Shown here: positions 49,639-55,112 of the stretch, in pieces
Position numbering within the stretch: the first letter of the stretch is position 1
How the letters are laid out: every line of letters begins with the position of its first letter
NCBI GenBank assembly: GCA_016179055.1
Contig: JACOSC010000025.1
Coordinates: forward strand, 1 to 64,000
Direction of reading: 5' to 3'
DNA length: 64,000 nt
From: Acidobacteriota bacterium
GTDB lineage: Bacteria; Acidobacteriota; UBA6911; JACOSC01
Program-made: the position numbers and the translations under genes
The notes under the pieces: model-generated
Seen by the model: the letters and a program-made list of their open reading frames with translations, nothing else
Database searches by the model: none
What the model was told of the DNA's origin: nothing

Positions 49639-51078
49639 ATGATGATACAAGGCAGGACAGAAGGTTATGACTTAGAGACCGTGCCTAACTTGAAGCCCCC
49701 GGCGGGCCCCGAGGCGCTCGAGCACATGAACCTGCTGCAGGGCGAGTTCTGGCGGAAGGTTCCCGCCTACCGAGAGATCGACGAGGCTACGTTTCTCGAC
49801 CACCTGTGGCAATACCGGCACTCGGTGAAAACGCCAAAGGAACTGACCGATACCGTACAGGATCTCGTATCGGCGTCGTTCCTAGAGGACCTGCAGGCCG
49901 GCTTCTATCGCGCGCCGATGAATGTACGCGTCTCGCCATACGTGATGGCGCTCATTGACTGGACCAACCCTTACGACGATCCGATTCGCACTCAGTTTAT
50001 TCCGCTGGCCTCGCGGCTGCTGCCCGATCACCCCAAGTTGACACTCGATTCGCTCCATGAGCAGGAGGACTCCCCGGTACCCGGCATGACCCACCGCTAC
50101 GCCGACAAGGCCCTGTTTCTTCCCACCAGCGTATGCCCGGTGTACTGCCGGTTTTGCACGCGCTCGTACGCCATCGGCGGTGACACCGACGTCGTTGAAA
50201 AGGCGGAATTGGCCACCGATCCCAAGCGCTGGCAGCAAGCCTTTGCCTACATCGCCTCCCATCCCGAATTGCAAGACATCGTCATCTCCGGCGGCGACAC
50301 TTATCAGTTGCCGGCCAAAAGCCTGAAGAAAATCGGCGACGCCCTGCTCGACATTCCCAACGTACGGCGCATGCGCTTTGCCTCCAAAGGTGTGGCGATT
50401 CTGCCGAGCAAGATCCTCACCGACCACGCCTGGGTAGACGCACTCTGCTCGGTCGTTCAGCGTGGCCGTTCGATGGGAAAGGACGTCGTCCTTCACACGC
50501 ACTTCAACAGCCCGAACGAGATCACGTGGATAACGGAGAAAGCGATGCGTCGGCTGTTCGAGCGCGGGGTGACCGTGCGCAACCAGTCAGTACTGATACG
50601 CGGCGTCAATGACGATAAGGAAACGATGCGGCTGCTCGTGCGGCGTCTCGGCTATCTCAACGCGCATCCCTACTATGTCTACTTGCATGACATGGTCAAG
50701 GGCGTGGAAGACTTGCGCACTACTGTGCAGACCGCCATCGACATTGAAAAGTTCGTCCGCGGCTGCACGGCCGGTTATAACACGCCGACGTTCGTCTGCG
50801 ACGCGCCCGGCGGCGGCGGTAAGCGCGACGTACATTCCTACGACTATTACGATCGCGAGAACGGCATCGCCGTTTACAGCGCACCCGGGGTAAAGCCCAA
50901 CCAGTGGTTCCTGTACTTCGATCCGTTAACGCAACTGGAACCGCAGGCGCGGCGCCGCTGGACGGACCCGGCGAACCATCGAGCGATGATCGAGGCCGCA
51001 CTGGCCCAGGCCAAGCGTTGTGACGCCTTTGACCTGAGGCCGGTCTCCTTTGCAAGCGCGAACACAGAAATCAGGTAG
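49639..51078 (+). CDS. kamA: KamA-family radical SAM lysine 2,3-aminomutase-like protein
   Basis: CPVYCRFCTRSYAIGG (CxxxCxxC), PTFVCDAPGGGGK (PLP lysine), YVYLHDMVKGVEDLRT (lysine-binding Asp position). Confidence 0.93.
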   Translation: MMIQGRTEGYDLETVPNLKPPAGPEALEHMNLLQGEFWRKVPAYREIDEATFLDHLWQYRHSVKTPKELTDTVQDLVSASFLEDLQAGFYRAPMNVRVSPYVMALIDWTNPYDDPIRTQFIPLASRLLPDHPKLTLDSLHEQEDSPVPGMTHRYADKALFLPTSVCPVYCRFCTRSYAIGGDTDVVEKAELATDPKRWQQAFAYIASHPELQDIVISGGDTYQLPAKSLKKIGDALLDIPNVRRMRFASKGVAILPSKILTDHAWVDALCSVVQRGRSMGKDVVLHTHFNSPNEITWITEKAMRRLFERGVTVRNQSVLIRGVNDDKETMRLLVRRLGYLNAHPYYVYLHDMVKGVEDLRTTVQTAIDIEKFVRGCTAGYNTPTFVCDAPGGGGKRDVHSYDYYDRENGIAVYSAPGVKPNQWFLYFDPLTQLEPQARRRWTDPANHRAMIEAALAQAKRCDAFDLRPVSFASANTEIR

Positions 51079-51083
51079 GAGCT

Positions 51084-54000: not shown

Positions 54001-55112
54001 GTGTGGTTCTGCTGCCCCTGTACACGACGCTCTACCTGCCGCCCTGGCTGCGCCTGCTCGGCGCCCGCATCGGCGCGCGCGCCGAGCTGTCCACAGTATG
54101 GTATTTTTCTCCCGAAACTATGGACGTCGGAGAAGAGAGCTTTTTTGCGGACGGCTCGATAATCGGAGGAAAGAGAATCTTCCGCGGCCAGTGCGAGATC
54201 GGTGTAAACCACGTCGGCCGCCGCAGCTTCGTGGGCAACAGCGCCATACTGCCCGTCGGACGCGGACTGGGGGACAAGTGTTTGCTCGGCGTACTTTCGG
54301 CGCCGCCCTGCACGGCAGAGGCTGCGGTCCCCGACGGGACCGAATGGTTAGGCTCGCCGGCCTTCGCTCTGCCCCATCGGCGAAAAGTAGAAGGTTTCTC
54401 AGATGCCGTGACCTATCGGCCCACGCCGAAACTCTATTTCCAGCGGGCCGTTATCGACGGTATGCGAATTCTAATCCCCGGCTATATCGCCACGGTCGTC
54501 GGCGGCGCCTTTTTCGCGGCGCTTTACTTCTGCCGGCTGTGGTTCGGAACCGTCGGGCTGTTTGCGCTGGCGCCAGTGTTGGGAATCATCACGTCGATCG
54601 TGCTTTGTTGTATCGTGGCGGGGTTAAAAAAACTGGTGATGGGAACTTTTCAGCCGGTCATAAAACCCTTGTGGTCGCCCTATGTCTGGTTTAACGAAAT
54701 GATAAACGGCATCTACGAATCAGTCATGGCCCCGGCGATGGCGACCTATTTGGGAACGCCTTTTGTGGTGCCCCTACTGCGTTTAATCGGATGCAAAATC
54801 GGCCGTCGCACCTTCATTGACTCGACACTGTTCTCGGAATTCGATCTCGTTGAAGTCGGCGATTATGCCGCGCTCAATCACGGATCGGTGGTGCAGACGC
54901 ACCTTTTTGAAGATCGCATTATGAAGTCTTCGTATGCGAAAATCGGCGACGAGTGCTCGCTGGGCAACATGGCCATTATTCTTTATGATGCGGAGATGCA
55001 GCAAGGAGCCTCGCTGGGCCCGCTCTCGCTCTTGATGAAAGGGGAGACGCTCGGCCCCTATACCCGCTGGCACGGAATTCCTACGGTGTCGGCTCGGTCT
55101 TCGGAGACCTAA
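51084..55112 (+). CDS. Pls/PosA-like single-module NRPS: adenylation and carrier domains plus multi-TM left-handed beta-helix C-terminus
   Basis: [52 protein letters not shown] (carrier Ser), then TM blocks and LbH-like repeats; about the size of polylysine synthetase. Confidence 0.9.
   Translation: [1342 protein letters not shown]

Follow-up and report, generated by a model that had tools for sequence, protein, structure and literature searches.

The window, a stretch of 64,000 nucleotides from an Acidobacteriota bacterium (contig C160 in the analysis; draft genome of 5.3 Mb), carries two adjoining genes which, judged from their sequences, very probably form an operon for a polymer of the epsilon-poly-L-beta-lysine type. 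The first is a kamA-like gene of the radical-SAM/PLP lysine 2,3-aminomutase type (49639–51078, + strand), encoding a protein of 479 aa, and the second (51084–55112, + strand) encodes a Pls/PosA-type single-module homopolymer synthetase of 1342 aa. An AGGAGG ribosome site is located upstream of kamA. The intergenic gap comprises 5 nt (51079–51083, + strand), and the ribosome site of the synthetase, TAGGAG, overlaps the TAG stop codon of kamA, which lies within the synthetase Shine-Dalgarno sequence (gTAGGAGctATG); the short gap and the position of this stop codon indicate that both genes constitute an operon. The initial annotation had reported the two open reading frames and the 5-nt gap, and the same coordinates were recovered, on the same strand.

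The synthetase consists of an adenylation domain (about aa 31–519; 51174–52640, + strand), a peptidyl carrier domain (aa 543–606; 52710–52901, + strand) with the phosphopantetheine Ser571 in the motif GGYSLL, and a membrane-bound polymerisation domain (aa 646–1333; 53019–55082, + strand). The AMP-binding and PP-binding domains both scored above their cut-offs, and the Pls/PosA terminal domain TIGR02353 was complete (562.5 bits, cut-off 423.1). Hydrophobic stretches were grouped in three clusters (about 650–709, 875–944, and 1127–1190), with left-handed beta-helix segments between them, the three-cluster pattern being likewise described for Pls and PosA. Domain profiles, Ser571 and the three clusters bear out the earlier description of an A domain, a carrier serine and a C-terminus with several transmembrane and LbH segments. 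Pls of Streptomyces albulus (epsilon-poly-L-lysine) shares the overall architecture and the TIGR02353 terminal domain with the window synthetase, and PosA of Acinetobacter baumannii (delta-poly-L-ornithine) shares the architecture. The fold of the terminal domain of synthetases of this type has been modelled (PMC10522769).

The window KamA passed the family model TIGR00238 (236.7 bits, curated cut-off 199.2) but not TIGR03820, the strict lysine 2,3-aminomutase equivalog AblA (248.6 bits, cut-off 525.4), and is therefore classified as a KamA-family protein and not as AblA. TIGR03820 outscored the glutamate, arginine and EpmB models, the protein being below all equivalog cut-offs, including that of the glutamate 2,3-aminomutase model TIGR04368 (202.2 bits, cut-off 650). 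The cluster motif CPVYCRFC, R175, D351, D388, and K395 are present. The sole solved relative is the lysine 2,3-aminomutase of Clostridium subterminale (2a5h), and the alignment, which spans residues 39–399 of 479, showed that the CxxxCxxC cysteines, the PLP lysine, the equivalent of Arg134 and both lysine-binding aspartates (Asp293 and Asp330 in 2a5h) are conserved, the latter as D351 (LHDMVKG) and D388 (VCDAPGGGGK), as had been proposed. Compared with 2a5h, the window KamA is extended at the N-terminus and differs at the C-terminus. Glutamate 2,3-aminomutases have lost the two lysine-binding aspartates. The argument of the initial annotation against such an activity was correct, although it carries little weight by itself, since many unpaired KamA relatives among those inspected also retain both residues. 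The enzyme probably acts on lysine, a substrate that we infer from sequence, given a score well below the strict AblA cut-off. A second, separate KamA is encoded in the same genome (contig C231, locus L048) and could have a housekeeping role. It adjoins two D-Ala-D-Ala-ligase-like ATP-grasp genes (L048 5895–9702), an arrangement that could serve to attach or consume beta-lysine without involvement of the polymer.

The pocket code of the window A domain is DGESVSAVNK (aa 229, 230, 233, 272, 292, 294, 316, 324, 325, and 513). The epsilon-poly-L-beta-lysine synthetase of Streptoalloteichus hindustanus has the code DGESISVVNK, as quoted in PMC10522769 from Yamanaka 2022; 8 of the 10 positions are identical to this quoted code and the other two are conservative (I/V and V/A). 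The comparison of codes, which the initial annotation had suggested as a check, thus favours beta-lysine, as far as the quoted code goes. Aspartate and glutamate at code positions 1 and 3, the rule for a diamino acid (PMC10522769), are present as D229 and E233 and are shared with PosA. The extraction can be considered valid, since codes known from the literature were recovered at other loci, namely DMEHNGTVSK for the PosA type, DSECYGGVTK for the Bdellovibrionales type, and exactly DGESISVVNK in loci L091, L184, and L185. Three further actinobacterial systems with codes beginning in DGE (family of L057) all have DGESVSVVNK, and the window synthetase has Ala at position 322, where all other DGE members have Val. 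Most of the other synthetases have the codes DAES[IV]GTV[IV]K, DMEHNG[TS]V[ST]K, DSECYGGVTK, or DFE.... PosA differs from the window system in its code, DMEHNGTVSK, and in its single-gene operon. In locus L188 (5747–8712), KamA is followed by a synthetase fragment with the variant code DGEDLTVVNK, in which the clade signature is kept and the pocket is altered; this fragment perhaps corresponds to a different beta-amino acid.

The occurrence of kamA was related to the code in a sample centred on relatives of the window, comprising 80 named loci to which genomic regions of Acidobacteriota, Planctomycetota, and Pseudonocardiaceae were added. A complete code and no less than 1.5 kb of upstream sequence were required, which left 93 non-redundant synthetases, window excluded. 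A kamA gene was located within 2 kb of 11 of the 12 DGE…N synthetases and of 0 of the 81 with other codes (Fisher p = 2e-13, a value that describes the pattern and not independent events, since the DGE group is one synthetase clade and independence is overstated). A chance neighbourhood of kamA and the synthetase was rejected by this contrast. KamA also adjoins the start of the synthetase in L191 and L192, two further DGE systems that are divided between contigs. The exception is L227, a DGE member lacking an adjacent KamA, although a KamA with 82% identity to the L057 partner is encoded in its genome. Pls-type synthetases were present in 16 of 396 Acidobacteriota genomes, the class of the window organism being thinly sampled (38 genomes), and among the Acidobacteriota synthetase loci retrieved KamA was adjacent only in the window. 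The assignment to this phylum agrees with a genome listed under it (G241), which is an exact match to Geothrix limicola over 18 kb.

These data also bear on the synthesis of ordinary epsilon-poly-L-alpha-lysine, with KamA as a chance neighbour serving osmolyte beta-lysine or EF-P modification. Such a product would agree with the same protein family, TIGR02353, and with the poly-lysine-like code DAES[IV]GTVVK of Hyphomicrobiaceae synthetases, the sister group of the DGE clade, which lack KamA. It is nevertheless unlikely: taking the poly-lysine-type code as DAES..., the window code departs from DAESIGTVIK at five positions (236, 299, 301, 322, and 331) and fits the beta-lysine enzyme, KamA was never beside DAES-type synthetases in the loci examined among the 93, and the second KamA of the genome could take the housekeeping role. 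Pls of Streptomyces albulus, for which a DAES... code is assumed, differs from the window system accordingly, no such locus examined having an adjacent KamA.

Phylogenetically, the DGE synthetases formed one clade of 14 rows (SH-aLRT 100), which persisted when the A domain was removed (SH-aLRT 97) and spans five phyla, Acidobacteriota, Planctomycetota, Pseudomonadota, Myxococcota, and Actinomycetota; the tree set was assembled with the S. hindustanus synthetase outside it. The partner KamA proteins were not monophyletic, their single origin being rejected (log-likelihood loss 480, AU p = 7e-5), and the cluster cysteines, the PLP lysine and both lysine-binding aspartates were kept in 14/14 of them. 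Four types were distinguished: that of the window, L054, L184, L185, and L186, with members seen only beside DGE synthetases; an actinobacterial type (L057, L226, and L228), whose genomes also contain closely related unpaired copies; a type near the Clostridium lysine 2,3-aminomutase (L091 and L188); and a short type (L053, L063, L191, and L192), near the second KamA of the window genome. Since the window and actinobacterial types are joined on one larger branch, KamA was recruited separately three or four times. In the synthetase tree, the window protein falls together with L051, and the KamA paired with L051 (L192, same genome) belongs to the short type, whereas the window KamA groups with those of L184 and L185, whose synthetases are placed in the other half of the DGE clade; KamA partners have therefore been exchanged between synthetases.

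The pairing of different KamA lineages, repeatedly, with the same synthetase type gives independent support to beta-lysine as the monomer. Another substrate of KamA, for instance ornithine or arginine, with polymerisation of the matching beta-amino acid, would be in keeping with the divergence of the window KamA, under all equivalog cut-offs, and is highly improbable in view of the pocket code, the best score obtained with the lysine model, and the KamA partner in L091, which passes the curated lysine 2,3-aminomutase equivalog cut-off (712 bits) beside a synthetase of the same clade. Poly-beta-lysine is likely to be a widespread bacterial polymer and not one peculiar to actinomycetes, made by one synthetase clade in at least five phyla, with the beta-lysine supply recruited several times from different KamA lineages and the window KamA lineage so far only beside such synthetases.

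From these features we infer the substrate, product, linkage, chain length, and biological role of the pair. KamA would convert L-lysine into L-beta-lysine by means of a 4Fe-4S cluster, S-adenosylmethionine, and PLP, and the A domain of the synthetase would adenylate beta-lysine. The carrier domain would hold beta-lysine as a thioester after priming by an Sfp-type phosphopantetheinyl transferase from another part of the genome; on contig C61, an open frame of 268 aa, in the size range of the Sfp type, contains a phosphopantetheinyl transferase domain. The membrane-bound C-terminal domain would then link one monomer after another via an amine, which by comparison with the known polymer would probably be the epsilon-amine, and the product would be epsilon-poly-L-beta-lysine or a close relative. 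The interpretation in the initial annotation, a beta-lysine homopolymer or beta-lysine-modified cationic compound, is supported, on the basis of sequence, by the pocket code and by the presence of KamA only with the DGE clade. By analogy with poly-lysine and poly-ornithine, an antimicrobial or surface-active polycation would be the obvious candidate role.

A phosphopantetheinyl transferase gene flanks the KamA-synthetase pair in L053, L054, L063, and L091, and a gene of the AAT/peptidase C45 family is located near the pair in L184 (2420–3454), L185 (5796–6824), and L054 (10507–11547), where its product could process or modify the polymer. Neither gene adjoins the window pair, and the idea of a conserved third gene was discarded. 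The AAT/C45-type acyltransferase or hydrolase of these three loci, which could modify the chain, is also the feature that would suit a mixed or decorated product, either alpha- and beta-lysine in alternation or a scaffold bearing a beta-lysine chain, as in streptothricin. For the window this is quite improbable, since the pair consists of two genes only, with no scaffold genes alongside, a single-module architecture is characteristic of homopolymer synthetases, and an AAT relative was absent from the window genome in a search run without a positive control.

Polycationic isopeptides, such as epsilon-poly-lysine, are used as food preservatives, antimicrobials, and cell-penetrating carriers. The idea of a poly-beta-lysine pathway is not new, since that of S. 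hindustanus was published in 2022; its epsilon-poly-beta-lysine was discovered via a lysine 2,3-aminomutase gene beside a Pls homologue, according to the summary in PMC10522769 (citing Yamanaka 2022, ACS Chem Biol 17:171), and a Methylomarinum homologue with the same code, DGESISVVNK, has already been noted (PMC10522769). In that summary the S. hindustanus system, like the window, has a single-module A-PCP-membrane synthetase beside the lysine 2,3-aminomutase gene. The window system differs in its host, a member of Acidobacteriota, and its KamA lineage differs from the actinobacterial lineage beside Pseudonocardiaceae DGE synthetases, in a comparison that covered sequences other than those of S. 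hindustanus. No report of the pathway in Acidobacteriota was found in the literature searched. As far as that literature shows, three points are new: the pathway occurs in Acidobacteriota and Planctomycetota, the code is strictly linked to KamA, and different KamA lineages have been recruited repeatedly. The beta-lysine polymer has been described from one actinomycete, and the same synthetase type with its precursor enzyme in five phyla points to many new enzymes; the DGE…N code plus a neighbouring KamA provides a sequence rule for monomer prediction.

Additional features were observed in the window. A fluoride riboswitch (60949–61028, + strand; Rfam RF01734, 42.7 bits) immediately precedes a CPA2-type cation/proton antiporter gene (61058–62230), with which it probably forms a fluoride-resistance unit. 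A type I restriction-modification locus (33468–41943, + strand) comprises hsdM, hsdS, genes for an M78/IrrE-domain peptidase and a DUF4411 protein, and a gene for an HsdR-like protein with an S24 peptidase domain at its C-terminal end. Both this peptidase fusion and the insertion of two genes seem unusual. At 42421–47038 (- strand), with a GC content of 51% versus about 60% in the synthetase region, an AbiEii-like nucleotidyltransferase gene adjoins that of an AAA protein of 1310 aa with weak similarity to PD-Lambda-4 A, possibly as a defence pair. A single open reading frame at 29904–31445 (+ strand) combines an N-terminal NUDIX domain with a C-terminal alpha/beta hydrolase, an uncommon fusion.
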